A DNA stretch of 42,751 nt, taken from NCBI GenBank assembly GCA_028712155.1, contig JAQTQO010000009.1, forward strand, positions 1-42,751. Reading direction: 5' to 3'. The position numbers and the translations under genes were made by a program. The DNA is from Patescibacteria group bacterium. Lineage in GTDB: Bacteria > Patescibacteriota > Patescibacteriia > Buchananbacterales > GWA2-38-13. Shown here in pieces: positions 1 to 24,032 of the stretch. The notes under the pieces were generated by a model. That model saw nothing but the letters and a program-made list of their open reading frames with translations, was not told where the DNA came from and did not search any database. Position 1 is the stretch's first letter; each line of letters starts with the position of its first letter.

Positions 1-3000
1 ACCACCAATGCGTTCGACGCGCTGTTCGACGGCGCGCAGGCCGACGGCGATGATATTTTGTTCACCAGCTCCGACGGACTCACAAAACTCACCCATGATG
101 TCGTGCGCTATGATCCCACAGAACATTATTTTCAGGCGTACGTGAAGGTGCCGACGGTCAATAACCTCACGGCCACCGACTTCTACCTCTATTACAACGC
201 GGCCGGAGTCGGCAGTCAGGCGTCAACCACGGGCGTGTGGAGTTCCTATGCGGCCGTCTATCATTTCAATGAATTGTCCGGCAATTACGGCGACAGCACC
301 GCCAACAATTTGGACGTGAACACGCAAAACATCGTCGCCTCCACGACCTGTCCGACCTGGCGGTGTCCGGATTTCGACGGCACCACCAACGATTATTTGT
401 TGGTGAACGATTCCGCGCTTTTAACGGGCGCAAATTGGACGGTCGAAGCGATTGCCCGGCGCGACGGCACCGGGGTCATCAACAGCTGCGGCACCGGCTG
501 CACGAATATGTATCCGATCGTGACGAAGGGTAACGGCCAGGATGAGACCGCGGCCACCAACATCCAATTCCAGCTCGGGGCCGAGGCCAACTGGTACGCC
601 TCGTGCAGCTACGAAGATAACGGCACCAACGGTATTACCGACAACGATGCGACAGCGGTTGCCGTCGGTGCCTGGAATTACTTTGCCGGGCAGATCGCCG
701 GCGCCGCGAGTATTGAGGCTTTTCTGAACGGCGCGAGCAACGGCCAGACCGCCACGGCCTATAATCCGAACGACGATAGCGGCGCTCCGCTCTGCATTGC
801 GGCTGCCTGTAATACCACCCCGGCCGTCGGCGCCGCCTGGAACGGCGCGGTCGGCGAGGTGCGCGTATCGAAATCTGCGCGGTCGGACGCGTGGATCGCG
901 GCCAGCTCCCGCACCATTTTTGGTGGCGGGACGTACCAGACGATCGGGGCGGAAGAAACGTACGGAGTAACCAGTCCTACCCTCACTCAATCGCATTACC
1001 GCTGGCGGCTCGACGACGGCAATGAAGCCGCCGGGCACTGGGGGGCGAATGAAGACACGGCAACCTCATCGGTCGGGTTGAGCACGGTGGTCCGCCTGCG
1101 CCTGGAGGTATCCAATGAAGGAACCGCCTCATCGTCTCAGCAGTATATTTTACAATACGGCACCGGTTCCGATCCGAAGGCTGGCACGTGGACAACCATT
1201 CCGGCTGCCGGCGGCTGCGGCGTATTGCCGTTCTGCATCGCCGCGTCCAGCCTGACCGAAGGCGCGGACACCACCAACGTCGCTGCCGGTTTGACGGATG
1301 AGAATTCGGCATTCATCGCCGGGCTGCAGAAAGAATCGAATGCCACGACCACGCACGTCTCGCTCGATACCACCAACTTCACCGAGATCGAGTATGCGTT
1401 CCAGGTGACCAGCAACGCGGTCAACAACACGGCGTACTACTTCCGTCTGGCCACGACCACCGGCAACGGCGTGGCCGGCCAGCTCAACACCTACACCGTG
1501 ACGCCGCAGTTGACCACGATTCCGGCCGGCGATATCACCGCGCCCACCATTTCCAATGTTTCTTCGGATAAAGCGAACGGATCCTACACTACGGGCGAAG
1601 TGATCGACATTGATGTGACGTTCTCCGAAGCTGTGACGTCCACCGGCAACGTCACCGTGACGCTGGAGACCGGCACCACCGATCGTACCTGTACATTCCA
1701 GGTTTCCAACGCAACTTCCGGAACCTGCAATTACACGGTCCAGGCCGGGGATACCACGTCGGACCTGACCGTAAGTACTATTGCTGGAACTATTGCCGAC
1801 CAGGCCGCCAACCCAATGACCAACTTTGCGCCGGCGACCAACCTTGCCGCCAACAAGGCGCTGGTCATTGATACCACCTCGCCGTCGGCTGCCACACTCA
1901 CGGCCACTACGATCGATTCCTCGAGTATCCGGCTGTCTTGGGTTTCGCCCGGCGATGACGGGGTCTCGACGACCGGACCGACGAGCGGGGCGTACATGAG
2001 CTACTCCGGTTCGGCGCTCACGGAAAATTTTGACAGCATGGGTTCCGCCGGCACGGCAGCGCCGACCGGTTGGAGCGCCGGGTATTTCAACCCGTCTATC
2101 CAGCAGGGGATAGCTGGTGGCAATAATGCCACGATTGTGGCATCAACACTCACGGTGAGTAACGGCAGCAATGATCCAAGTGCGGTTGCTTTCCGTGCCA
2201 ACTTTGGAACCACCGGTGCATCGGATCGTGCGCTGGGCAGTTTTCCGCGGACCACCCCGGCCGGCGACCAATTCATCCAAGTAGCGGTTAAAAATGACAC
2301 GCTCAACCCGATTACCTCGTTTACCCTGCAGTACACCGGAGAGGAATGGCGCAACACGACTGCCCCCGTGCAATCACTCACGATGTGGTACAGCAATACC
2401 AGCGAAACGAGCGGATTTGTCAGCATGGGCAGTAATTTTACGTTCTCCTCGCCGAATAACACCGGTGGGAATGTCGCTATTGACGGCAATGCGTCGGGAA
2501 ACTACACCGTAATTTCTAACACCTACACGCCGTCGAGCCCGATCGCCGCCGGCAGCACGTTTTATCTGCGTTGGTATGATATCAACGACAACGCGCTGGC
2601 CGACGACTTTTTCGCCATCGACGACGTGACCATCACGCCGACGGTTTCCGATATCGGCACCGCGGTGTCCTACGACATCCGCTACAGCACGTCGGCGATC
2701 AACGCAGGCAACTGGGCGGCCGCGACGGCCGCGACCGGTGAACCGGCGCCGCAAGTGGCGGGAACGGCGCAGACGTTTGATGTCACCGGTCTCAGCGGAG
2801 GGACACAATACTACTTCGCCATGAAGACGACCGACGACGTGACCAACACGTCCGGTCTCTCGAATGTGCCGAACGCAACCACCGACGGTTCGGCGCCGGC
2901 CCCCGCCCTCACCCAGTCCCACTACCGGTGGCGCCTGGACGACGGCAACGAGACGGCCGCCCACTGGGGGGCGAATGAGGATACGGCCACGTCCTCGGTT

Positions 3001-6000
3001 GGCTTGAGCACGGTGGTGCGCCTGCGCATGGAAGTCAACAACGCGGGCACCGCTTCCTCATCACAACAATACATTTTGCAGTACGGTACCGGCTCCGATC
3101 CGAAAGTGGACACCTGGACCACGGTCCCGGCTTCCGGCGCCTGCGGCAGCTCGCCGTTCTGCATGAACGCCTCCAGCCTGACCGAAGGGGCCGACACCAC
3201 CAATGTCGCCTCCGGCCTGACCGACGCCGACGCCGCGTTCATCGCCGGCCTGCAGAAAGAAACCAACGCCACCACCACCCACATTTCGCTGGATACCCCC
3301 AACTTCACCGAGATCGAGTATGCGTTCCAAGTGACGGGCAATGCGGCAGAAGGGACTACCTATTATTTCCGTTTTGCAACCACCACCGGGGACGGAGTTT
3401 CCGGCCAGCTCAACACCTACACCGTGACGCCGCAGCTGACGACGTACTCGAGCGCGGCCGCGCCGACCATTACGTCCGTTTCCTCGGATAAAGCCAACGG
3501 TTCGTACACGACCGGTGAGGTGATCGATATCGACGTGTCATTCTCGGAAGCCGTCACCGCCACGACGACCGTCACCGTGGTGCTGGACTCCGGCGGCAGT
3601 TGCGGCTTTACGGTTTCCAACGCCTCGACGGCAACCTGCAATTACACCGTGGCGGCCGGGCAGGTCAGCGCGGATCTGACTGCGAGCGCCGTCCTGGGTT
3701 ACCTCGAGGATCAAGCCGGCAACCCGATGACGAGTTTCTTGCCGGCGGCCAATCTCGCGGCGAACAAGGCGCTGGTCATCGATGCGAGCGCGCCGTCAAC
3801 GGTATCCAGTCTTGCCGTTTCAACCGTGGCGACCTCTTCGGTGCAACTGACGTGGAATTCTCCCGGCGATGATTCCATTAACCAGGCATCGCAGTACGTC
3901 ATCTTTATCAGCGTGGACGGCATGGGTGCCGAGTATGTCGCTCCGTTGCTTCAGGACGGACTGGCCAACGAAATGGTTACCTTTGAACGGTTCCAGACCG
4001 AAGGTTCCGGTACGCTGAACGCCCGCGACGATCCGGATTACGCCGTTACGTTGCCCAACCACACCACGATGGCGACCGGCCGCGGCGTGGCCGGCGCGAG
4101 CGGCCACGGCTGGACCGGCAACGGCGATCCGGGGCCGACCGACACGCTCGCCACCAATAAAGGTTCGTACGTTGCCAGCGTGTTTGACGTGGCGCACGAC
4201 AACGGAATGCGCACCGGCCTGTGGTCGGGCAAATCGAAATTCATTTTGTTCCAGCAGTCCTACAGTACGACCACCGGCGCGGCGGACGTCACCGGCGTCG
4301 ATAACGGCGCGGACAAGATTTCCTACAATTACATTTCCAACGGCGTGGCGGCCAGCGCCATGACCACCGACTTTATCAGCCAGATGACTACCCACCCGTT
4401 CAACTATTCCTTTGTCCACTACCAGGACCCGGATGCCACCGGGCACAGCTCGGGCTGGTCCACGACGGTCACCAGCGGTTTCGCCGCCACGCTGAAAGCC
4501 GTCGATACGGCGATCGGCAGAATTTTCACAATGGTTGAGAATAGTTCCGTGCTCCGGAACAAAACAACCATCATTATTACGGCGGACCACGGCGGGCATA
4601 GCACCACGCACGGTGATACAACCAACTACTTGGATTACGAAATACCTTTCTATGTGTGGGGGGCCGGAGCGGCTGCGGCGCAAGATTTGTATAGCTTGAA
4701 CACGTCAACTCTAGCAGCGCCCTTGCAGGCGTCAAATCCGGCGTATGCCACCAGTCGTCCGGTGCATAACGGCGACGCCAGCAACTTGGCCCTGCAACTC
4801 CTCGGCCTGAGCGCTATCCCCGGTTCAACGATCGACAGCAAACAGGACCTGGCTACCAAAGTTCTGGGCACGCCGACGGCGTACGACATCCGCTACTCGA
4901 CGGCCGCCATTACCGCCGATACTTGGGCCGCGGCAACGCCGGTCACGGGCGAACCGGCTCCGGGCGCGGCCGGCGCCGCGCAGACCATGACCGTCAGCGG
5001 GCTCACCCCCAACACCACCTACTACTTTGCCATGAAAGCCGCCGACGAAATGCCTAATTCGTCGGCACTCTCCAACGCGATCAGTACGTCCACGTCGCAG
5101 GTTGAAGTGAGCTGCGGCGGAACGCTGGTGCAGTCGAAGACCGCTTCCCACGCCTACTCGTCACCCGCCACGTCCATTACGGTTACCCTGGATGCGGCCG
5201 CCACCGCCGGCAACCTGCTGATTGCCACCGTGAGCAGCGACAAAACTGCCGGGGCGTACACTCTACCTACTGGGTTCACCCTGGTGCAGAGCTACATTTC
5301 CGCCAATGTCTCCGGCGCGATGGCGTACAAAGTCGCCACGGGCGGCGAGACCGCCGTCCAGTGGCAGTACACCAACAGCGAGGAATCCAATGCGTGGGTG
5401 GGGGAGTACTCGGGCCTGGCGACCAGTGGCGTGCTGGATATTGGCATTGAAGCCGACTCCGGTGCGAACGCGCCCACATCGCTGAGCTCCGGTACGTCGG
5501 CGGTCACCGCCCAGAACGACGAGCTGGCGATCGCCATGATGGCCAATGATTCCTGGAAAGACATGGACGGCGGCCGGTCGTGGTCCAACGGCTACGCGGA
5601 GATCTCCTACGCGAACGACGGCAACTCCGCGGGCGGTTCACCCAGCATGAGCATCGCGACGAAAACATTGAGTGCCGCCGCGGCGCAAGAAACGACTTAC
5701 GCGTGCACGGATACCGGCGACCAGGCGTACATCGTGCTCGCTACGTTCAAAGCGGTCGCCTGCGGCGCTTCCAACCCCGTGCTGACCCAATCCCACTACC
5801 GGTGGCGCAACGACGATGGCACGGAAGTGGCCGCTTCGTGGGGCGCCAATGAAGACACTGCGACCAGTTCCGTCGGTACCAGCGGCCATGTGGTGCGCCT
5901 CCGTATGGAGGTGTCCAACGCCGGTACCGCTTCATCGTCGCAGCAGTACATCCTGCAGTACAGCAACACTTCAAATCCGAAAGCGGGCAATTGGTTTACG

Positions 6001-9000
6001 GTTCCCGCGTCCGGCAGTTGCACGGGGTTTCCGTTCTGCATGGCGGCGTCGAGCCTGACGGAGGGTGCGGCTACCACCAACGTCGCGTCGGGTTTGACGG
6101 ATAGTAATTCCGCGTTTGCCGCGGGCCTGCAAAAAGAATCGAACGCCACCACCACGCATATTTCGCTTAGCACCACCAACTTTACCGAGATCGAGTACGC
6201 GTTTCAGGTGACCAGCAGCGCCCCGAACAATACGACGCTCTACTTCCGCCTGGCGACGACGACCGGAAACGGCACGGCCGGTCAGCTGAATACCTACAGT
6301 GTGACCCCGAGTTTGACCACGGCGTCGAGCGGCGGCGGGGGTGGTGGCACGGCTCCCGTACCGAGCGGCGGCGGGTTTTCTGACGGGCAGACCGGCGTAC
6401 CGGTGGACGTCTGGGTCGAAAAATTCTTTGATAAGTCCTTGGCCTCGGCGACGGTTAACACGACGAACGTCACCTTGAAAGAAAATACCGGCAATACGCG
6501 CCTGGGCGCGCCGACCGGATCGAACCTCTGCACGAGCGTCATGCTGTCGGGTAACATCCGCATTGAATGTCTTCACGCCGCCTTAACACCTAGCAAGTGG
6601 TACACGTTCACCATCACGACGGGTGTGACCGAACAGATGGGCACGCCGCTGGCGACCAACTACAGTTTCGCGTTCATGACCTCGTCGTTTAACGGCGGAT
6701 CGGGCTACATCCCGTCGCCGGTCATCACCTCCAGCGCCCCGGTCGCCGGGGCGACGATCGCCCCCAACGCCACGCTGCGGGTGAACTTCAGTCCGGGTGG
6801 TGATGGGAGCGGTACGGATACGATGGCAACTGCGGGCGCGGGTTCGGTCTTGTCGCTGTCGAACGTTAAAATTTTTGCCGCCCAGTACGGCCAGCCGATC
6901 AACCAGACCAACTACCTGGCGTGCGCGTCCGTTGGCGCCGATCCGGCCAACCCGACCGACTGCAACTTGGCCTGGAACGCGACGACCAAGGAGCTCATCA
7001 TCACGCCGGGTAAAAAGGCGCCGGCCGGAACGGTGGTGTCGACGGGCGGCACGGCGCTCGCCGCGAATACCGAGTACGTCTTGATGGTAAAGGGTTCCGC
7101 CAGCGGCACGGGCGTGCAGAATGCCGACAGCGTCGGGATGAGCGGATCGGACTACTTCATCACGTTTAAAACCGTGTCCGCCGACAGCACCGGGCCCGAC
7201 ATCACCGGGTCATCCCCGAGCAACAACGCCACCGGCATCGACCGCGCCACCTACGACATCAGCCTCGGCTTCAACGAAGCCGTAGACTCCGCCAGCGTCA
7301 CGACGGCGACGATTAAACTGTACTGCGAGGACAACGACGGCAACCTCGCCAACGGCTGCACGGCCGGCGCCAACGGCTGGGATGTCAACGACTCCGAGAT
7401 CACCGGTACGACGGTGACGTACAGTTCGAGCGAACGTTCGGCCACGCTGTCGCCTAACCGCCTGCTGGCCGAATCGACCAAGTACTACCTTCGCGTGGTG
7501 AGCTCGTCGGGGGTAAAAGATATTTCGGGTAACGCGTTCGACGGCACGCCGGGCACGGCCGGCAACCAGGATGAGATTATCGCCTTCACGACGGCCGCGA
7601 CGGTCAACGGCCAGGCGAATGACACGGTCAAGCCCAAACTGCTGTTTGCCAATGCCGATAATTTCTCGGTGGTGATTACGTTCTCCGAGCCGGTGAAATT
7701 CGACGCCACGGCGAATGCCACGCAAGTCACCAGCTCGAACAGCACCGACGCCAATAACACCGCTAACTGGACACTGGAATCGCCGGCCGGCGTCACTGTC
7801 AGTCTGACCGGAAAAAAGATCAAGTACGTTCCCGATAATAATTCGATCACCATCAGCGGTTTGTCGTTCCCGCCCGACCAAGGTTTCAAGATTACCGCCT
7901 CGACCGACATCACCGATCTCACCGGCAACGCCGTGGACAGCACCGGCACGCCGGCCGGCAACGTCGCCTACGGGACGGTGCAGAGCGTCGGCACGACGAA
8001 CGGGCAGGTCGAACTCGGCAGCGGCGGTTCGGGCGGCATGTGCAACTACTACACTATGGGCGTGCAGCCGGTACGCGTCGCGCCCCGCACCGCGCTGGCC
8101 GGTTCAACGAGCGTCTACGAAGTCGAGTTCCCGGCCACGACGGTGATTCCGGCTGGCGGGCAGATCGTGCTGACGTTCCCGTCCGGCTTCAGCTTTATCG
8201 CCGACGGCGGCACGAGCGAATGCCAGGACGTACTGAACGTAACGGACAATACCGACATCAACGGCGCATCGGTCGGGACGGTGACGATGGCGTCGGTTGT
8301 CTGCAGCGACGCCGCGAGAACCGTGACGGTCACCACCGGCGGGGCCAGCACCGTGGCCGGCGACCGGCTCCGCTTCAATATCCAGGGCGTGAAGAGCTCG
8401 TCGGTCGCCCGCGACTACACCACCTCGGGCTACACGGTCGACGTCAAGACGAAGAACGCCTCCGGAACGCTGTTGGATTCCAAGACGTCGATGCCGTTCT
8501 ACCTGACGCAGGGCGGTTCGCTCAGCATCTCGGGTATGGTGTTCAACGACAACGGCACGGGCGGCGGCACTGAGGGTGACGGCGTCAAGAACGGCACGGA
8601 AGCCGGTATTGCGAATATCCAGGTTTGCCTTGGCGGAATGATGGGGTACTCATGTACGACGACCGACAGCAGCGGCGAGTACGCCTTCAGTTTGCTGGCA
8701 AACGGGTACTACAGCGTGAACATTCCGCCGTTAACTTCGGGCAGTTACGTCGGTGGGCCGTACTTCCGTGACGTCAACCTGAGTGGATCGAACAAGACCG
8801 ACCTGGACTTCGGTTTTGTCGCTTCGAACCGCAACATTACCGTAACCCTCAGCGGCATTCCGTCGGGCACTGACCTGGACGTCTACACGTACGGTTCGGG
8901 CAGTTCGGCAAACACCGGATTTGTCGTCCGCGAGGTGCTGTGGGAAAGCGGGGCGCAGAATGGCACCGGTTCGGCCACCCTGCCGGTGTCGGACGGTACC

Positions 9001-12000
9001 TGGGAAGTCGGCGTGCGGCCGTGGATGCCGAAAGACCCGTCGGCCGGCATGACCAAGATGCCGGTGATGAGCTTCATGCCGCCCCAGCCGAAGTCGGTGA
9101 CCGTGTCGGGCGCGGGGAGCTACCCGGTGAGCTTCGCCATTCAGACCGCGGCGCAGGCGGTCAAGGGCAAGGTGGTGGACGGCTCGGGTACGGCGATCGC
9201 CAACGTCTACATTGGAGCGCGGCCGGCACAGATGACGTCGAGCATTGGCGGCGGGGGAACGACACAGACCGGATCCGACGGCACGTTCTCGCTCAATATC
9301 GCCATTGGCGCGTATCTCCTTGAGGCGTTCATGCCCGGCATGCCGCCGACGGCCGGCACCGAGGTGACGGTGGTCGCCGATACGGGCAACGTTGCTACCG
9401 ACGGCAACAGCGCAGCTGACGTTTACCGCCGCGGGGTGCTCATTATCAATGACTACGACGGCGACGACGATGACCTCATTGTTAAGATTTCAAAAGGCTC
9501 CTACTCGATTGCCGGCATGGTGCTCGACGAATCGGGCAATGCCATCCCGTACGCCCACGTCAGCGGCGAGCAGGTGGACAATTCAGGCAATCCGAACGGC
9601 CCGCGCATGGACGCCTCGACCGACGCCTCCGGCAACTTCACGCTCTACGTGAACAACGGCACTTGGAAGCTCCGCGGGTTTGCTCCGGGCTACGGGGAAC
9701 TAGCTGCGCTGACCGTGACGATATCGTCGGCCAGCCTGACGGGCCAGAATCTGCAAGCGACGACGGCGACGTTCGGTACCGTCAGCGGTCAGGTTACCCA
9801 GGGCGGCGCCGGGGTGGCGGGGGTGTTCGTGGGCATCCATGGCGCGAGCGGCGGCAACAGCACCGTGACCGACGCGAGCGGCAACTATGAATTAAAAAAT
9901 ATCGAAGGAACGGGCTACACCATCGAAGGGTTTCTACAGGGCAGCGGGCCGACCTCCGTTATTTCCAACGTAACCGTGACGGCCGGCGCAACATTGTCGG
10001 GTCAAGATTTGACCATTGGGCAGACCGGAACGCTTGCGGTGACGATTTCAGGCGTAACCGATGCGTTCGTGGAGGCGTTCGACTCGAGCGGCCGGGGCAA
10101 CCGGACGGGCGCCAACGCGAGCGGGGTCTACAGCATCACCTTGCCGGCCGGGACGTACACGGTTAAAGCCGGCAGCCCGTCGCTGGGGCCGATCGGCAGC
10201 CAGACGAATGTGGTGATAGCCGCCAGCCAGACGGTTGCCGTCACCTTCACTCCGCCCGCGACGTATGCGGTGTCCGGTACGGTCCAGTCGGCCACAGCGG
10301 TGTGCGCCAATCAGGCGTCGGTGCTCATTTCATCCGCCAGCACCGGCCGCATGACGGTGACGACCACGGATGCGTCCGGCGCGTTCTCCGTGAATTTGCC
10401 CAACGGCACGTACTCGATCGGCGCGGGCAAGCCCGGCTGTGTGGACAGCGCGGCGGCCGGCAGCATCACGGTGGCGAGCGCCGCTTTGAGGACCGGCACG
10501 AACCGCACGCTGGTGGTAACGGATGCGACCGTCAGCGGCGCGGTGACCCTTTCCGGCAGCAATGTGACCGTGGACACCAAAGTCATCGCGAAAAGTTCGG
10601 ACGGGCGGTACGTGTTTACTGATGTGGGTACTTCCGCGACCGTCGGCAATAACTACACGCTGAATTTGACTGCCGGGACCTGGACCGTGAGTGCCCGTTC
10701 GGACGGCTACGCATCGTCGGAGTCGTCGGTGACGGTCGTATCCGGCGGGAGCGGGACGGCCAATCTCACCTTGTCGGCCATCAGCGGTTACACCCGAACC
10801 GACCAGCGCTCGTCCACGCTCAAGCCTTCGCAAGGCGGCATCGTGAAGGATACCAACATTGGTGACCGCTTTGAAGTGAATTTTCCGGCTGGCACGCTGG
10901 GGACCTCTTCGGATGACGGGTCCATTCTGACCAAAAAGACCTCGGCCATCGTGCCGCAGACCGAATCGGTGAAGGTGGTGGGCTCGGCGGGCATTGAAAT
11001 CACGCCGAAAGATTCTTCCGGCCAGGCTATCACCACGCTGTCGTCATCGTCGGGTTCGGGCGTGACCGTGCAGGTGCCGTACACCGACGCCGATGTGACG
11101 GCTGCCGGCGTGACGGAAAGCCAGCTGGTGCTGTCGGTGTGGTCGGAGGAAAAGCAGCAATGGGAACCGCTGGCCACCACCGTGGACACCACTAACAATA
11201 CCTTGACGGCGATCGTCACCCACTTCTCCGTATTCGCGCCGACCGGATCGTTGGGCGGCGGGACGACCCCGGGCGGCGGAAGCCAAACGACCGGGAGCAC
11301 CGGCAGCACCAACACCACCGGCGGCGGAGGCGGCGTGCGGCTGCCCACCGCGCCGGGCGTGAAAGGCATTTGGTTCAACAATCAATCGGCGCTCGACGGC
11401 ATCCACGGTACCATCAGGTCGCCGTTCACTATCACGACGCGCACCGTCACGCTCACCTTCAGCGTGCCGGATGCGTCCGGCATGGTGCTGGGTAATACCG
11501 CCGATCTCGCCGGCCGTTCCTGGGAAACCTACCGGCCCAGTGTCACCTGGCAACTGTCCGATGATTTGAATTATCCGACCGTCTACATCCGGTTCCGCAC
11601 CTCGGAAGGCGGCCAAACCCCGCTCTACGCCATCGTGTTTGGCTACCCGCGCAAGCTGGTGAAGTACGAGAACAGCCCGAAGGTATACCTGATCGAAAAC
11701 GGTTTGAAACGGCACATCGCCAACGAGCAGGCGTTCCTGGCCAATGGTTTTACGTGGGATCAGATTCTCACCATTCCGGCGAGCGAGAAATATCCGGATG
11801 GCGCGCCGATCACCGTCAAGCTGGCAGCACCGGTCGTGCGCAAACTGGTAAAGTACGATGACAGTCCGAAAGTCTACCTGATTGAGAACGGTGTGAAACG
11901 CCACATCGCCAATGAGCAAGCTTTCAACGACAACGGTTACCGCTGGAATGAAATTGTGGTGATCCCGGCGAATGAAACGTACCCCGACGGTGCTGCCATC

Positions 12001-12261
12001 ACCGCCAAAGTGATTGCCACGCCGGCCAAAGCGGCGTACCAGTTCAAGCGGTTCCTCAGTATTGGCAGCACCGGCACCGATGTCCGCCAGCTCCAGGCCA
12101 TCCTGCGGCAGCTTAACTATTTCAACCATCCCAGCAACACCGGGTACTATGGAACCGTGACGGCTGAAGCCGTGAAAAAATTCCAAGCCGACCGCGGCAT
12201 CCCCGTGCGCGGCTACGTCGGCCCGCAGACCCGCGACGCACTCAATCATCTGTCGCCGTAA
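1..12261 (+). CDS. Giant multidomain cell-surface protein, 5'-truncated by window edge
   Basis: The reading frame is open from base 1 to a TAA at 12259-12261, giving at least 4,086 residues; the start and any signal peptide lie outside the window. Domains in order (nt): DUF2341-like (1-215), LamG/ConA-like (235-900), repeat A copy 1 (982-1518), Ig-like (1540-1890), Fn3 interrupted by a jelly-roll-like domain (1890-2880), repeat A copy 2, Ig-like (3460-3795), Fn3 interrupted by a type I phosphodiesterase (3796-5095), a beta-sandwich-like stretch (5100-5765), repeat A copy 3, SbsA-type Ig-like domains (6380-7990), an SdrB-like domain (8515-8825), a series of carboxypeptidase-regulatory-like repeats (8826-10790), a ZU5-like region (10790-11250), a Gly/Thr linker, two tandem 'KVYLIENG.KRHIA' repeats (11650-12015) and a C-terminal PG_binding_1 domain (12030-12258). 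The last anchors the protein to peptidoglycan, so it should be an extracellular adhesin or scaffold with a catalytic domain. Domain names are by eye; the overall architecture is secure, individual boundaries approximate. Confidence 0.9.
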   Translation, partial: TTNAFDALFDGAQADGDDILFTSSDGLTKLTHDVVRYDPTEHYFQAYVKVPTVNNLTATDFYLYYNAAGVGSQASTTGVWSSYAAVYHFNELSGNYGDSTANNLDVNTQNIVASTTCPTWRCPDFDGTTNDYLLVNDSALLTGANWTVEAIARRDGTGVINSCGTGCTNMYPIVTKGNGQDETAATNIQFQLGAEANWYASCSYEDNGTNGITDNDATAVAVGAWNYFAGQIAGAASIEAFLNGASNGQTATAYNPNDDSGAPLCIAAACNTTPAVGAAWNGAVGEVRVSKSARSDAWIAASSRTIFGGGTYQTIGAEETYGVTSPTLTQSHYRWRLDDGNEAAGHWGANEDTATSSVGLSTVVRLRLEVSNEGTASSSQQYILQYGTGSDPKAGTWTTIPAAGGCGVLPFCIAASSLTEGADTTNVAAGLTDENSAFIAGLQKESNATTTHVSLDTTNFTEIEYAFQVTSNAVNNTAYYFRLATTTGNGVAGQLNTYTVTPQLTTIPAGDITAPTISNVSSDKANGSYTTGEVIDIDVTFSEAVTSTGNVTVTLETGTTDRTCTFQVSNATSGTCNYTVQAGDTTSDLTVSTIAGTIADQAANPMTNFAPATNLAANKALVIDTTSPSAATLTATTIDSSSIRLSWVSPGDDGVSTTGPTSGAYMSYSGSALTENFDSMGSAGTAAPTGWSAGYFNPSIQQGIAGGNNATIVASTLTVSNGSNDPSAVAFRANFGTTGASDRALGSFPRTTPAGDQFIQVAVKNDTLNPITSFTLQYTGEEWRNTTAPVQSLTMWYSNTSETSGFVSMGSNFTFSSPNNTGGNVAIDGNASGNYTVISNTYTPSSPIAAGSTFYLRWYDINDNALADDFFAIDDVTITPTVSDIGTAVSYDIRYSTSAINAGNWAAATAATGEPAPQVAGTAQTFDVTGLSGGTQYYFAMKTTDDVTNTSGLSNVPNATTDGSAPAPALTQSHYRWRLDDGNETAAHWGANEDTATSSVGLSTVVRLRMEVNNAGTASSSQQYILQYGTGSDPKVDTWTTVPASGACGSSPFCMNASSLTEGADTTNVASGLTDADAAFIAGLQKETNATTTHISLDTPNFTEIEYAFQVTGNAAEGTTYYFRFATTTGDGVSGQLNTYTVTPQLTTYSSAAAPTITSVSSDKANGSYTTGEVIDIDVSFSEAVTATTTVTVVLDSGGSCGFTVSNASTATCNYTVAAGQVSADLTASAVLGYLEDQAGNPMTSFLPAANLAANKALVIDASAPSTVSSLAVSTVATSSVQLTWNSPGDDSINQASQYVIFISVDGMGAEYVAPLLQDGLANEMVTFERFQTEGSGTLNARDDPDYAVTLPNHTTMATGRGVAGASGHGWTGNGDPGPTDTLATNKGSYVASVFDVAHDNGMRTGLWSGKSKFILFQQSYSTTTGAADVTGVDNGADKISYNYISNGVAASAMTTDFISQMTTHPFNYSFVHYQDPDATGHSSGWSTTVTSGFAATLKAVDTAIGRIFTMVENSSVLRNKTTIIITADHGGHSTTHGDTTNYLDYEIPFYVWGAGAAAAQDLYSLNTSTLAAPLQASNPAYATSRPVHNGDASNLALQLLGLSAIPGSTIDSKQDLATKVLGTPTAYDIRYSTAAITADTWAAATPVTGEPAPGAAGAAQTMTVSGLTPNTTYYFAMKAADEMPNSSALSNAISTSTSQVEVSCGGTLVQSKTASHAYSSPATSITVTLDAAATAGNLLIATVSSDKTAGAYTLPTGFTLVQSYISANVSGAMAYKVATGGETAVQWQYTNSEESNAWVGEYSGLATSGVLDIGIEADSGANAPTSLSSGTSAVTAQNDELAIAMMANDSWKDMDGGRSWSNGYAEISYANDGNSAGGSPSMSIATKTLSAAAAQETTYACTDTGDQAYIVLATFKAVACGASNPVLTQSHYRWRNDDGTEVAASWGANEDTATSSVGTSGHVVRLRMEVSNAGTASSSQQYILQYSNTSNPKAGNWFTVPASGSCTGFPFCMAASSLTEGAATTNVASGLTDSNSAFAAGLQKESNATTTHISLSTTNFTEIEYAFQVTSSAPNNTTLYFRLATTTGNGTAGQLNTYSVTPSLTTASSGGGGGGTAPVPSGGGFSDGQTGVPVDVWVEKFFDKSLASATVNTTNVTLKENTGNTRLGAPTGSNLCTSVMLSGNIRIECLHAALTPSKWYTFTITTGVTEQMGTPLATNYSFAFMTSSFNGGSGYIPSPVITSSAPVAGATIAPNATLRVNFSPGGDGSGTDTMATAGAGSVLSLSNVKIFAAQYGQPINQTNYLACASVGADPANPTDCNLAWNATTKELIITPGKKAPAGTVVSTGGTALAANTEYVLMVKGSASGTGVQNADSVGMSGSDYFITFKTVSADSTGPDITGSSPSNNATGIDRATYDISLGFNEAVDSASVTTATIKLYCEDNDGNLANGCTAGANGWDVNDSEITGTTVTYSSSERSATLSPNRLLAESTKYYLRVVSSSGVKDISGNAFDGTPGTAGNQDEIIAFTTAATVNGQANDTVKPKLLFANADNFSVVITFSEPVKFDATANATQVTSSNSTDANNTANWTLESPAGVTVSLTGKKIKYVPDNNSITISGLSFPPDQGFKITASTDITDLTGNAVDSTGTPAGNVAYGTVQSVGTTNGQVELGSGGSGGMCNYYTMGVQPVRVAPRTALAGSTSVYEVEFPATTVIPAGGQIVLTFPSGFSFIADGGTSECQDVLNVTDNTDINGASVGTVTMASVVCSDAARTVTVTTGGASTVAGDRLRFNIQGVKSSSVARDYTTSGYTVDVKTKNASGTLLDSKTSMPFYLTQGGSLSISGMVFNDNGTGGGTEGDGVKNGTEAGIANIQVCLGGMMGYSCTTTDSSGEYAFSLLANGYYSVNIPPLTSGSYVGGPYFRDVNLSGSNKTDLDFGFVASNRNITVTLSGIPSGTDLDVYTYGSGSSANTGFVVREVLWESGAQNGTGSATLPVSDGTWEVGVRPWMPKDPSAGMTKMPVMSFMPPQPKSVTVSGAGSYPVSFAIQTAAQAVKGKVVDGSGTAIANVYIGARPAQMTSSIGGGGTTQTGSDGTFSLNIAIGAYLLEAFMPGMPPTAGTEVTVVADTGNVATDGNSAADVYRRGVLIINDYDGDDDDLIVKISKGSYSIAGMVLDESGNAIPYAHVSGEQVDNSGNPNGPRMDASTDASGNFTLYVNNGTWKLRGFAPGYGELAALTVTISSASLTGQNLQATTATFGTVSGQVTQGGAGVAGVFVGIHGASGGNSTVTDASGNYELKNIEGTGYTIEGFLQGSGPTSVISNVTVTAGATLSGQDLTIGQTGTLAVTISGVTDAFVEAFDSSGRGNRTGANASGVYSITLPAGTYTVKAGSPSLGPIGSQTNVVIAASQTVAVTFTPPATYAVSGTVQSATAVCANQASVLISSASTGRMTVTTTDASGAFSVNLPNGTYSIGAGKPGCVDSAAAGSITVASAALRTGTNRTLVVTDATVSGAVTLSGSNVTVDTKVIAKSSDGRYVFTDVGTSATVGNNYTLNLTAGTWTVSARSDGYASSESSVTVVSGGSGTANLTLSAISGYTRTDQRSSTLKPSQGGIVKDTNIGDRFEVNFPAGTLGTSSDDGSILTKKTSAIVPQTESVKVVGSAGIEITPKDSSGQAITTLSSSSGSGVTVQVPYTDADVTAAGVTESQLVLSVWSEEKQQWEPLATTVDTTNNTLTAIVTHFSVFAPTGSLGGGTTPGGGSQTTGSTGSTNTTGGGGGVRLPTAPGVKGIWFNNQSALDGIHGTIRSPFTITTRTVTLTFSVPDASGMVLGNTADLAGRSWETYRPSVTWQLSDDLNYPTVYIRFRTSEGGQTPLYAIVFGYPRKLVKYENSPKVYLIENGLKRHIANEQAFLANGFTWDQILTIPASEKYPDGAPITVKLAAPVVRKLVKYDDSPKVYLIENGVKRHIANEQAFNDNGYRWNEIVVIPANETYPDGAAITAKVIATPAKAAYQFKRFLSIGSTGTDVRQLQAILRQLNYFNHPSNTGYYGTVTAEAVKKFQADRGIPVRGYVGPQTRDALNHLSP
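982..1518 (+). repeat. Intragenic repeat A, copy 1 (about 179 aa)
   Basis: First of three copies of a unit beginning LTQSHYRWR.DDG.E and ending near TYTVTPQLTT. It is a family often seen in bacterial surface proteins. Copies 1 and 2 are both 537 nt and nearly collinear. Confidence 0.9.
2908..3444 (+). repeat. Intragenic repeat A, copy 2
   Basis: 537-nt copy of the HYRWR.DDG unit, collinear with the copy at 982. It is again followed by an Ig-like domain (SSDKANGSYTTGEVIDIDV) and an interrupted Fn3, so the duplicated block is larger than the repeat itself. Confidence 0.9.
3892..4875 (+). other. Type I phosphodiesterase/nucleotide pyrophosphatase domain embedded in the giant protein
   Basis: In-frame domain of about 325 residues resembling the alkaline-phosphatase superfamily (PF01663-like). 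The expected metal and nucleophile residues are all visible: Asp in ISVDG (3916-3918), nucleophile Thr in VTLPNH (4048-4050), Asp and His in DPDATGH (4432-4434 and 4444-4446), the Asp-His pair in TADHGGH (4585-4590) and a further His in TTHG (4609-4611). It therefore looks catalytically competent and would act outside the cell on a phosphodiester or pyrophosphate substrate that cannot be predicted. It sits between the two halves of one Fn3 domain: upstream ends at SPGDDS, downstream resumes at AYDIRYST. Confidence 0.85.
5782..6321 (+). repeat. Intragenic repeat A, copy 3
   Basis: 540-nt third copy of the HYRWR.DDG unit, more diverged than the first two. It is followed by a glycine-rich linker instead of the Ig-like/Fn3 pair. 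Confidence 0.88.
11650..12015 (+). repeat. Two tandem S-layer-like KVYLIENG repeats
   Basis: Two near-identical units of about 60 residues, each with RKLVKY..SPKVYLIENG, KRHIANEQAF and a YPDGA.IT end. They precede the PG-binding domain. Similar but diverged repeats open the metalloprotein at 27839. Confidence 0.85.
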
Positions 12262-20396: not shown

Positions 20397-20426
20397 TTGA
20401 CGTGTCTTGTCAGTAGGCGGTATAAT
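20397..20426 (+). promoter_or_regulatory. Near-consensus sigma70 promoter of the oxoamine synthase/kinase pair
   Basis: TTGACG (20397-20402) and a perfect TATAAT (20421-20426) are separated by 18 nt. The predicted leader is about 85 nt to the ATG at 20517. It is the strongest promoter seen in the window. Confidence 0.8.
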
Positions 20427-20516
20427 ATGGTGTAGCGAATAACTTATATTTAAACGGTTCTATTTATGTCGGACGGGCAATTGATTTTTTTGTGGTAATG
20501 TGTGGGTCCTTAATTT

Positions 20517-21719
20517 ATGAATAAGATTAAAGAAATATTGGAATACGTTGATAATCATCAACTTTATCCCGATCTTCGAATTATCCAAGGCGGAGCCGAG
20601 CCTGAAGTAATGATTGATGGGAAAAAGGTTTTAATGTTTTCTTCGAATAATTATTTAGGATTGGCTACGCATCCAAAGACGGTTAACGCTGCCGTTGAAG
20701 CCACAAAAAATTATGGGACTGGATCTGATGGGTCACGAATGCTCTCGGGCAATTTGCAAGTTCATCGAGATTTTGAATTAGCCATCGCAAAATTTAAAGG
20801 TGGACAAGATGCGATCGTTTGGCCGACGGGTTATTCTGCAAATGTAGGAGTAATTTCGGCAGTGATGAATCCGCCCGCAATTGGAGCGAAAGATTTTTTC
20901 AACAAAAAGAGTTTAATTCTGAGCGATGAGTTAAATCACGCAAGTATTATTGATGGGTGTCGTTTAAGTGGTCAGGACATTGTTGTTTATAAACATTGTG
21001 ATGTCCAGGATTTGGAACGAAAGTTGAGAAAATTCATTCGTCGCAGAAAATTAGTTGTTACCGATAGTGTTTTCAGTATGGATGGAGATATCGCCCCGTT
21101 AAATAAAATGGCGCCGCTATGTAAAAAGTATAATGCCCTCTTAATGATTGATGAGGCACATTCGACCGGCATGCTTGGCGACAGCGGTCATGGCGCTACA
21201 GAATATTTCGGTCTCAAAGCAGTAGATGATATAGATATTATTCTTGGGACCTGCAGTAAAGCGTTAGCCTCAAGTGGAGGTTTCGTAGTGGGCAGTAGTG
21301 ATCTGATACGTTATCTAAGAATTTCAAGTCGCTCATATATATTTTCTACTGCAATGACCCCCGCCGCCTCAGCCTCGTTAATTGCCGCACTTGAAGTTAT
21401 AGAAAAGGAACCCTGGATTCGAGAAAAAATGTGGCAGAATGTTGAACTTATGCGTAATGGTTTCAATAAAGTGGGGTTTAATACTTGCGGTAGTCAAACT
21501 CAAATCATTCCAATTCTGATTGGGACGGATGAAAATGCAATTATTTTTAGCAGGAAGTTGTTCAAAAAAGGAGTTTTTGGCCCATGTGTACGATGGCCGG
21601 CCGTCCCCCACGGAAAATCTAGGATTAGATTTACTGTCATGGCGACGCATACTAAAGAACAAATCGATTATTTAATAAAAAGTTGTAGAGAAATTGGTCG
21701 AGAATTAAAAATCATATAA
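20517..21719 (+). CDS. PLP-dependent alpha-oxoamine synthase (Kbl/BioF/SPT/CqsA-type)
   Basis: 400 aa, full family length. It condenses an acyl-thioester with an amino acid. Visible landmarks: SSNNYLGL near residue 42, GSDGSRMLSGN, DELNHASIIDG, PLP-contacting DEAHSTG (Asp212, His215), Schiff-base Lys248 in GTCSKALASSGG, and the C-terminal RIRFTVMATHT. Family members make 2-amino-3-oxobutyrate, KAPA for biotin, sphingoid bases, or alpha-hydroxyketone-type autoinducers (CqsA, LqsA). No biotin genes, threonine dehydrogenase or sphingolipid genes are nearby. The only partner is a sensor kinase starting 3 nt after the stop, which favours a signal-producing role (inference). Composition is AT-rich (24 G/C in the 60 bases 20581-20640), unlike the flanks, suggesting transfer. 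No clear Shine-Dalgarno sequence is seen. Confidence 0.88.
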   Translation: MNKIKEILEYVDNHQLYPDLRIIQGGAEPEVMIDGKKVLMFSSNNYLGLATHPKTVNAAVEATKNYGTGSDGSRMLSGNLQVHRDFELAIAKFKGGQDAIVWPTGYSANVGVISAVMNPPAIGAKDFFNKKSLILSDELNHASIIDGCRLSGQDIVVYKHCDVQDLERKLRKFIRRRKLVVTDSVFSMDGDIAPLNKMAPLCKKYNALLMIDEAHSTGMLGDSGHGATEYFGLKAVDDIDIILGTCSKALASSGGFVVGSSDLIRYLRISSRSYIFSTAMTPAASASLIAALEVIEKEPWIREKMWQNVELMRNGFNKVGFNTCGSQTQIIPILIGTDENAIIFSRKLFKKGVFGPCVRWPAVPHGKSRIRFTVMATHTKEQIDYLIKSCREIGRELKII

Positions 21720-21722
21720 AAA

Positions 21723-23981
21723 ATGTTGGTATTAATTATTTTGACATCTTTATTAAATTTACTATTGGGGGTAATCGTAGTAGTGAAGGGCCCCAAACGT
21801 TTTATTAACATTTTATTTGGGGTATTAGCGGCTACTACATCCTTTTGGGGTTTCAATAATTTTATGATCGGGGTTTCACAAAACCCCGTTTTTTGGTTGA
21901 AGGGTGCATACTCATGGGGTGGATTGGTAATTTCAAGCGGACTAGTTTGGGTGCTTTATCTTTGCAACAGTAAGAATATCAAATGGAAGGCCTTGGGAAT
22001 TTATATCCTTGCGGCTTTCTTTTTTATCGCTTCATACACCGATGGTTTAATTATTGGGAAAGTCGAGAAGGTGTATCTTGGCCGATTTGATGGCACAACC
22101 GGGCCACTTTTCGCGCTGTATAGTTTATTTTTCTTTCTGGTGGCACTTGTTTCTGCGCTTAGATTATTCTGGGGGGTAAGGGAATCTGAGGGCATTAAAA
22201 GATCCCAGTTATTGATAGTTGCCATCGGAGCATATTCATATCTGTTTGTTTCCGTAATGGTGAGTTTTATTTTGCCACTTTTTGGTTATCTTAAATTAAT
22301 GTCTCTCGATAGCCCATCTTCTTTATTCCTGGTAGGGTCTATCGCCTATGCCATTACCCGATATCGCTTCATGGATATTCGGGCGATCATTCTTCGTTCT
22401 TTCACGTTCAGTATCATTATATTCATAATTACCGGGTTCTTTTCCATTATTACCTCCGTCATCACATATGTCTTTGCTGAGTTGACGGATTTACAGTCCA
22501 ACATCGTATCGGGCGTTATTCTTTCTTTCCTCGTTACTGTTTTTTACCAGCCGCTGCATACCATTATCGAACGCGCAACGAATGCATTCCTGTATAAAAA
22601 ATCATATGATCCCGATGTTTTGATATCCAAAATTAACCAGATAGCTTCGTCTACGTTGGATTTCAACCATCTTTTGAAATCCATTTGCGTGACTCTCGTA
22701 GAAGCATTTCACTCCGAGAAAATCGGCGTGGTTTTATTGGATAAGAAAGAAAAGTTGTACGTAGCATACGAGAGCGGGTTTGCCCAAGGTGTGACGGTAA
22801 AGTTAACCAGAGGGAGCGAAAAAATCATGCTCGAACAATTCCGGCGTACTCCGGAGACGCTCGTTGTTGAGGAAATGAAAACGCAGTATGAGAACGGGGA
22901 AAATGTTAGCAAAGTGGTTAGTCCGAAATTGCTTACCGCGTTGCATCAAGAGGATGTAGCGGTTATCGTACCCCTTCGGTTGAAAGACAAACTTATCGGC
23001 GTGGTTGCGATCGGTACGAAAAAATCCGGTGAATTGTACGGCACCCGGGATCTGCGCGTGCTGAAACTGGTCTCAGGCCAGATTGCAGTGTCCATCGAAA
23101 ACGCGCGGCTGTACGATGAGCAAAAACGTTTTGCCATCGTGCTAAAAGATGAAGTGGAGAAGGCAACGCGCGAGTTGCGCGCCGCAAACCTTGAGCTCAA
23201 GCGGTTGGACGCGTCCAAATCCGAGTTCATTTCCATTGCCAGCCATCAACTGCGCACACCGTTGACCATCATTAAGGGGTTCATCTCCATGATTAACGAA
23301 CAGGCGTTCGGCAAAGTGCCGCCGTTGATCGGCAAGCAGCTGGCCAAAGTATATGAGGCCAATGAGCGGTTGATCGGATTGGTGGAGGACCTTCTGAATA
23401 TTTCGCGCATCGAGTCCGGCCGGCAATCCTATACGTGGCAGTCCACCGATCTTTTCAAATTGGCTTCTGAAGTTGTTGAGAACATCAAGTCGCAGGCCGA
23501 GCAGAAGGGGCTGCGGCTGATTCTCGAAAAACCCGAAGGCCGGTTCCCCAAACCGGTCGCCGACGGAGACAAGCTCCACGAGGTCATGATGAATTTTGTG
23601 GACAACGCCATTAAGTACACCGCAACCGGCGAGATCCACGTTCAAATGGCGACGACGCCGCCGGGCATGATAACCTTTGTCGTGCGGGATTCCGGCATGG
23701 GTCTGTCGCGCGATACGATTCTCAATCTTTTCAAGAAATTTTCCCGCGGTAAGGGCAGCGCGCTGGTCCACACCGAAGGCACCGGCTTGGGCCTCTACGT
23801 GGCCAAGAAAATTATTGACGTGCATGAGGGAAAAATTTGGGCCGAATCGCGGGGCGAGGGCAAGGGCAGTACGTTCGCGTTCTCCGTTCCCATTGCCGGT
23901 CCCAAGAACCGCCCGCAGCCCGTCGTGCGCAAAGTCACCATCAAAACCCCCGAGCAGCTCGCCCGTGAAGCTAAACGGTAG
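21723..23981 (+). CDS. 7TM-GAF sensor histidine kinase
   Basis: 752 aa, starting 3 nt after the oxoamine synthase stop. About seven hydrophobic segments occupy residues 1-270, a HisKA_7TM-like membrane sensor ending in the typical ITRYRFMDIRAIILRS, followed by further hydrophobic segments, a GAF domain (about 300-450), a coiled linker, HisKA with phospho-acceptor His508 in IASHQLRTPL, and HATPase_c with the N box (VDNAIKY, Asn628), DSGMGLS and GTGLGLYVAKK. All catalytic boxes look intact. There is no receiver domain, so a separate response regulator is needed; none is adjacent. The 5' half is AT-rich like the upstream gene, while the kinase core is GC-rich (37 G/C in 23521-23580), so the gene looks mosaic. 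It may sense a product of the upstream enzyme (inference). Confidence 0.9.
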   Translation: MLVLIILTSLLNLLLGVIVVVKGPKRFINILFGVLAATTSFWGFNNFMIGVSQNPVFWLKGAYSWGGLVISSGLVWVLYLCNSKNIKWKALGIYILAAFFFIASYTDGLIIGKVEKVYLGRFDGTTGPLFALYSLFFFLVALVSALRLFWGVRESEGIKRSQLLIVAIGAYSYLFVSVMVSFILPLFGYLKLMSLDSPSSLFLVGSIAYAITRYRFMDIRAIILRSFTFSIIIFIITGFFSIITSVITYVFAELTDLQSNIVSGVILSFLVTVFYQPLHTIIERATNAFLYKKSYDPDVLISKINQIASSTLDFNHLLKSICVTLVEAFHSEKIGVVLLDKKEKLYVAYESGFAQGVTVKLTRGSEKIMLEQFRRTPETLVVEEMKTQYENGENVSKVVSPKLLTALHQEDVAVIVPLRLKDKLIGVVAIGTKKSGELYGTRDLRVLKLVSGQIAVSIENARLYDEQKRFAIVLKDEVEKATRELRAANLELKRLDASKSEFISIASHQLRTPLTIIKGFISMINEQAFGKVPPLIGKQLAKVYEANERLIGLVEDLLNISRIESGRQSYTWQSTDLFKLASEVVENIKSQAEQKGLRLILEKPEGRFPKPVADGDKLHEVMMNFVDNAIKYTATGEIHVQMATTPPGMITFVVRDSGMGLSRDTILNLFKKFSRGKGSALVHTEGTGLGLYVAKKIIDVHEGKIWAESRGEGKGSTFAFSVPIAGPKNRPQPVVRKVTIKTPEQLAREAKR

Positions 23982-23998: not shown

Positions 23999-24032
23999 AA
24001 AAACCGCGGCGATCGCCGCGGTTTTTGTTGGA
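23999..24032. terminator. Bidirectional terminator
   Basis: A perfect 28-nt palindrome (23999-24026) with A-run and T-run arms sits between the stop codons of the histidine kinase and the convergent membrane protein gene, serving both. Confidence 0.9.

Follow-up and report, generated by a model that had tools for sequence, protein, structure and literature searches.

In this study, we analysed a two-gene locus in a 42,751-nucleotide stretch of a Patescibacteria genome (order Buchananbacterales; the whole stretch is called the window below). An alpha-oxoamine synthase (AOS) gene is followed there by a gene for a chimeric sensor histidine kinase, whose seven-transmembrane (7TM) head resembles the heads encoded beside related synthases and whose remainder resembles the kinases of its own order. 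We consider it probable, at roughly two chances in three, that the locus encodes a signal synthase together with its receptor, with the synthase making the ligand of the 7TM head by a logic like that of CqsA/CqsS but from other parts. Enzymes of two unrelated quorum-signal families occur beside a single receptor family, in which the sensor half travels with the enzyme and the output half remains in place. The most economical account is that the head senses the product of the enzyme. An earlier note on this DNA, made from the sequence alone, had proposed a synthase/receptor pair from the two adjacent genes, and the head-swap evidence described here supports that proposal and goes well beyond adjacency. 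Patescibacteria are tiny, mostly host-dependent bacteria, and the locus touches the question of whether they use small molecules to talk among themselves or with their hosts.

In the mechanism that we propose, the synthase would catalyse the condensation of an amino acid with an acyl-CoA or comparable thioester, yielding a small molecule of the acyl alpha-aminoketone type; in some genomes a further tailoring enzyme (acetoacetate-decarboxylase-like, a short-chain dehydrogenase/reductase [SDR], or a class IV aminotransferase) would complete it. The neighbouring 7TM head would bind the product or a close derivative and set the activity of the GAF-histidine kinase, which would phosphorylate a response regulator, CheY-like or of another kind, encoded next door in some genomes and elsewhere in the window genome. 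Synthase and head may have reached the window genome together, in what would have been a single event, the head being spliced onto a kinase already in the lineage.

A chimeric kinase beside a distinct synthase

Both open reading frames (ORFs) are complete and lie at 20517-23981 on the forward strand; the promoter, domains, seam, and terminator given below are on the same strand. The synthase (400 aa; pyridoxal phosphate [PLP]-dependent, candidate signal synthase) occupies 20517-21719, and the kinase (752 aa) occupies 21723-23981, its ATG following the synthase stop after a gap of 3 nt; the arrangement is as the earlier note had read it. Domain searches placed HisKA_7TM (PF16927) at kinase residues 5-219, GAF at about 312-460, HisKA at 498-566, and HATPase_c at 614-724, corresponding to a sensor head at 21723-22388, a GAF domain at 22656-23102, and a kinase core at 23214-23894. 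Like other HisKA_7TM kinases, the protein scores above the family cut-off (35.9 versus 28.6 bits) with a kinase core behind the match, and it qualifies as a member.

The window kinase is a chimera of an AOS-linked head and a kinase of its own order. The head is 57% identical to that of a Komeilibacteria locus (L031) but only 27-31% identical to those of AOS-less kinases from its own order, whereas the linker, GAF domain, and kinase core are 28, 21, and 48% identical to L031 and up to 52, 57, and 64% identical to order-mates. The linker (22398-22655), which contains further hydrophobic segments, is part of the order-resident chassis, at 36-52% identity to order-mates. Sliding identity switches sharply at about residues 215-225 (22365-22397), which marks a recombination seam with the L031-related head before it and the order-resident kinase after it. 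The trees agree with this partition. Support for grouping the head is 100/97 with AOS-linked heads and 100/99 with L031, and a tree that unites it with the order-mates is rejected by the approximately unbiased (AU) test (p 7e-11); joining the core to L031 is likewise rejected (AU p 4e-5), and the core lies among order-mates with moderate support (90/85). The GC content of third codon positions is 0.34-0.45 in the synthase and head and 0.52-0.78 in the other window genes tested, with the stretch right behind the seam intermediate. Together with the relatives described below, this suggests a cassette of enzyme and receptor head that is transferred as a unit onto a kinase already present in the cell. 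Structure prediction, which the earlier note had recommended for the 7TM pocket, gave a confident AlphaFold2 model of the head (mean pLDDT 93), but its matches in the PDB were weak, GPCR-like seven-helix folds only (best E 5e-3), and for that reason we assign no ligand class.

The synthase belongs to a clade distinct from Kbl, BioF, SPT, and ALAS. It carries the Pfam domain Aminotran_1_2 and falls in the NCBIfam BioF/Kbl/SPT superfamily, whose PLP lysine, stacking His, Asp, and other universal residues are present. In a 50-row tree it lies inside a clade of 21 Patescibacteria sequences (support 98/94) that excludes E. coli and Coxiella Kbl, Thermus BioF/Kbl, both SPT groups, and BioF-like enzymes; with CqsA, BioF, and ALAS added, the clade is unbroken (98/97). 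These trees were built without LqsA, and they depend on the agreement of the CqsA and Sphingomonas SPT sequences used with PDB chains. Among 23 clade members, K248 (the PLP lysine), H141, and D212 are kept in all, H215 is kept in 22, and R371 is present in every member covering that position. A private insertion of about 9-21 residues ahead of the SDELNHASIIDG motif occurs in 23/23 members and 0/32 references, so that the N109-D137 segment measures 27-39 aa in all members versus 18-20 aa in all 32 references; in the window synthase the insertion comprises about 11 residues (approximately 20868-20900). Seven Kbl-side Patescibacteria synthases (L159, L160, L161, L163, L164, L165, and L173) have a separate insertion of 7-8 residues of their own and lie repeatedly near genes for proteins of about 400 and 600 aa. 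Plasmid records contained only relatives of the synthase below 60% identity.

The candidate identities were each set against these data. Kbl identity is rejected by the tree, by a model score below cut-off (334 versus 493 bits), and by the lack of a detectable threonine dehydrogenase gene (tdh) in the window genome. BioF identity is rejected although the BioF model is narrowly passed (437 versus 426 bits), as the synthase lies outside the BioF-like rows and no biotin synthase was detected; bioB was over cut-off in none of the 21 genomes searched, the window genome among them. SPT identity is rejected by position outside both SPT groups and a score of 400 bits against a cut-off of 640. Direct kinship with CqsA is not supported, since the synthase falls below the cut-off of the CqsA/LqsA model NF005526 (223 versus 428 bits) and does not group with CqsA; the branch of CqsA is, however, so long that joining it to the clade is not rejected (AU p 0.16). 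The phylogeny that the earlier note had called for thus places the enzyme outside the Kbl, BioF, and SPT clades, and its observation that no neighbouring pathway offers another role extends, for biotin synthase and threonine dehydrogenase, to the whole genome.

Linkage, covariation, and gene neighbourhoods across Patescibacteria

AOS loci were fetched by synthase similarity alone, with neighbours ignored, from genomes that are mostly draft metagenome-assembled genomes (MAGs); the adjacency rates describe this sample and are not a census, and domain labels of neighbour genes come from profiles built in this analysis. A HisKA_7TM gene lies within three genes of the synthase in 17 of the 21 clade loci so fetched. 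Two loci from elsewhere in the phylum (L012 and L013), chosen afterwards for their 7TM neighbour, both fell inside the clade and bring the count to 19/23, against 0/26 for other Patescibacteria AOS (Fisher p about 5e-10, or about 2e-9 without the two; these values are descriptive, as the sequences are related, with no correction for this, and the two added loci were selected by their neighbour). Of the four clade loci without a close 7TM gene, two are at contig ends (L113 and L144) and one has 7TM kinases four and five genes away (L149); the fourth is L141. Three genomes (G420, G606, and G441) hold both AOS types, with the Kbl-type copy by a Tdh-like gene and the clade copy by 7TM genes, and are an internal control for clade-specific linkage. 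The window genome (1.44 Mb, about 96% complete) contains exactly one AOS gene and one PF16927 gene. Because these sole copies adjoin each other, and because about 20 other genomes show the same adjacency, the pairing is more than chance and, on the survey that the earlier note had suggested, not private to one genome. Split synthase ORFs next to 7TM genes occur at two loci (L155:1083-2302 and L156:3858-5017); these are possible pseudogenes or assembly errors.

Heads covary with enzyme type, and kinase cores covary with host lineage. Seventeen AOS-adjacent heads form the clade with 100/97 support to which the window head belongs, and three heads from operons with both AOS and an acetoacetate-decarboxylase (ADC)-like gene form another (98/93). 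The core tree groups by genome kinship: the core of L138, which has an ADC-type head, shares a group with those of L143 and L156, which have AOS-type heads (100/99). Order-mates carry the window's kinase chassis behind other enzymes: in G600 and G567 LuxI/FeeM-like proteins abut it, in G554 it follows a pyruvoyl histidine-decarboxylase-like protein, and in G506 it follows a reductase and a methyltransferase. When 381 genomes of the class were searched blind for LuxI/FeeM-like enzymes, 13 loci were obtained, and 10 of these have a 7TM gene in their 1.5-kb flanks. We give an even chance to a broader model, a modular communication platform of Patescibacteria in which each lineage would keep one 7TM-GAF-kinase chassis, synthase-plus-head cassettes (AOS; AOS with ADC-like; LuxI/FeeM-like; perhaps pyruvoyl decarboxylase) would be swapped by recombination just behind the head, and synthase type would predict head type.

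Several observations accompany these comparisons. The LuxI/FeeM-like loci are L204:6969-7721, L205:8229-8960, and L213-L224, two of them from order-mates that share the window chassis. The G567 contig with the LuxI/FeeM-linked kinase and an AOS also encodes a 103-aa truncated 7TM fragment (L205:4612-4923), nearest to AOS-type heads, which looks like a decayed head. The pyruvoyl histidine-decarboxylase-like protein (L207:5619-6437; PF02329, 139 bits) stands immediately before a 7TM-GAF kinase and may belong to an amine signal or cue pathway. A different AOS group lies directly before a large transmembrane hybrid kinase in Bacillota and one proteobacterial MAG (L086:6001-10242, L087:217-4366, L091:1493-4315, and L095:6001-9973), with HisKA-HATPase-REC-REC-Hpt architecture in the three checked; this association is independent of the Patescibacteria pair.

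The neighbourhoods of clade synthases include genes that could supply acyl-CoA and tailor an aminoketone. An acyl-CoA synthetase adjoins the synthase in L031, L138, L143, and L149, and most of the 21 genomes have a single AMP-binding enzyme, in several placed within the AOS operon. Alpha/beta hydrolases lie near the synthase in several operons, CheY-like regulators in L142, L146, and L149, and PlsC-type acyltransferases, recognized by sequence motif, near some copies; L158 has a class IV aminotransferase and L148 an SDR. The ADC-like gene lies just downstream of the synthase in four clade members and, within the searched genomes, occurs only where it abuts the synthase; a search of the window genome did not find it. 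The AlphaFold model of its product matches acetoacetate decarboxylases and MppR. Many loci also have stand-alone 7TM genes beside the synthase, often in tandem, for which roles as co-receptors, decoys, or in transport are conceivable; those at L102:9009-10513, L138:1098-2473, L143:882-1583, L148:1692-3917, and L158:4429-7089 encode proteins of about 220-290 aa that lack kinase domains.

The transcription signals described in the earlier note were recovered in the window. A sigma-70-like promoter, TTGACG-18-TATAAT at 20397-20426, matches the consensus at 11 of 12 positions and is the region's best site, though sites with at least 9/12 matches are not significantly commoner there than in shuffled sequence. 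A hairpin followed by a U-run at 24000-24025 is a strong predicted intrinsic terminator (-27.3 kcal/mol, z = -6.2 versus shuffles), found by folding; a pattern scan gave no match there. Another terminator-like hairpin with a T-run lies within the kinase coding region near its start (21869-21888), but matches of this kind occur no more often than in shuffled sequence. Near the start of the window, a very long ORF of 4,067 aa spans 58-12261.

Signal pair or metabolic sensor

Several points weigh against the signal-pair reading. A sensor beside an enzyme can merely watch an intracellular product or a membrane lipid, and the identity of the ligand, its binding, and the release and action of the molecule between cells are steps that we infer. 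Neither an AMP-binding acyl-CoA synthetase nor a ketoacyl synthase was detected in the window genome, which leaves the acyl donor unexplained. G567, from the same family as the window genome, keeps a clade AOS without an adjacent intact 7TM gene, and the long branch of CqsA prevents its placement in the AOS tree. The main rival, which we consider unlikely, is that the synthase makes a structural, sphingoid-base-like lipid or an internal metabolite and that the 7TM kinase monitors this product or the membrane state to regulate the pathway, with nothing secreted. Bacterial sphingolipid operons, too, place an acyl-CoA synthetase beside an AOS (PMC9386255), a lipid is a conceivable ligand for a 7TM domain, the Sphingobacterium SPT is among the closest solved relatives of the synthase, and the PlsC-type acyltransferases and the SDR of L148 would fit as well. 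Yet the synthase scores below the SPT cut-off and falls outside both SPT groups, and no small ORF near clade synthases resembles the acyl carrier protein typical of rhodobacterial SPT operons. Lipid homeostasis also does not predict that LuxI/FeeM-like and pyruvoyl histidine-decarboxylase-like enzymes should use the same receptor chassis.

The tight coupling of heads to enzymes favours self-sensing and so speaks against a one-way signal, in which a host or neighbour would be the target of the molecule, or the head would sense a host-derived analogue, amounting to cue sensing or manipulation and not quorum sensing. No ketoacyl synthase was found in 18 of the 21 genomes, so their acyl chains probably come from other organisms, and most keep the single AMP-binding enzyme, in several inside the operon; the tandem stand-alone 7TM genes, too, are not explained by a simple one-receptor circuit. 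The sequence gives no clue to a recipient, and we give this account only a slight chance. Least probable, and disfavoured, is that the enzyme is an ordinary Kbl or BioF with a fortuitous kinase neighbour: the narrow pass on the BioF model and a Thermus BioF/Kbl enzyme as the nearest solved structure speak for it, whereas the exclusion of Kbl and BioF-like sequences from the clade, the missing bioB and tdh, and the recurrence of the adjacency in so many genomes speak against it.

Relation to known signalling systems

The locus provides a defined enzyme and a defined receptor head, and the head swaps found in nature allow predictions of which head should respond to which enzyme; chemical communication in Patescibacteria is now directly testable through it. 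The natural fusion points between 7TM heads and kinases could serve in biosensors. A previous study of candidate phyla radiation (CPR) genomes listed 51 CqsA-homologue/kinase and 18 LuxI-homologue/kinase neighbour pairs, with homologues found by BLAST/HMM using CqsA and CqsS (Bernard et al. 2020, PMC7567580). The window locus probably belongs to the CqsA-homologue/kinase kind, and since 51 such pairs were listed, the pairing per se is not new. Where the earlier note spoke of an independent, undescribed version of the CqsA/CqsS logic, "undescribed" was too strong. The separate synthase clade, the shared 7TM-GAF-kinase chassis, and head swapping were not found in the passages of that study considered here, and our results suggest that CqsA-like and LuxI-like pairs, earlier counted separately, share one receptor architecture. 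Our literature search found no report of ligand, release, or response for such Patescibacteria pairs, and a search on the HisKA_7TM (PF16927) name found no ligand for the family.

The window synthase shares the fold and catalytic residues, and presumably the decarboxylative condensation, of Kbl, BioF, SPT, and ALAS, but it differs from them in its separate clade, its private insertion, and the lack of the matching pathway genes tested. In the alpha-hydroxyketone systems CqsA/CqsS of Vibrio and LqsA/LqsS of Legionella, a PLP-dependent AOS is likewise encoded beside a multi-transmembrane sensor histidine kinase, and the logic is the same with another synthase and six-transmembrane receptors (PMC3376566, PMC3285556). 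CqsS and LqsS are six-transmembrane kinases (PMC3376566) with HisKA directly behind the sensor and no GAF domain, whereas the window kinase has a seven-helix PF16927 head, a linker, a GAF domain, and HisKA only at residue 498, in keeping with the earlier note's view that the sensor is not of the CqsS type. Relatives of the window locus, unlike those systems, add to the pair stand-alone 7TM proteins, an acyl-CoA synthetase, and tailoring enzymes. Given also its low score on their model and its failure to group with CqsA, the CqsA/LqsA family is only an analogy for the window synthase.

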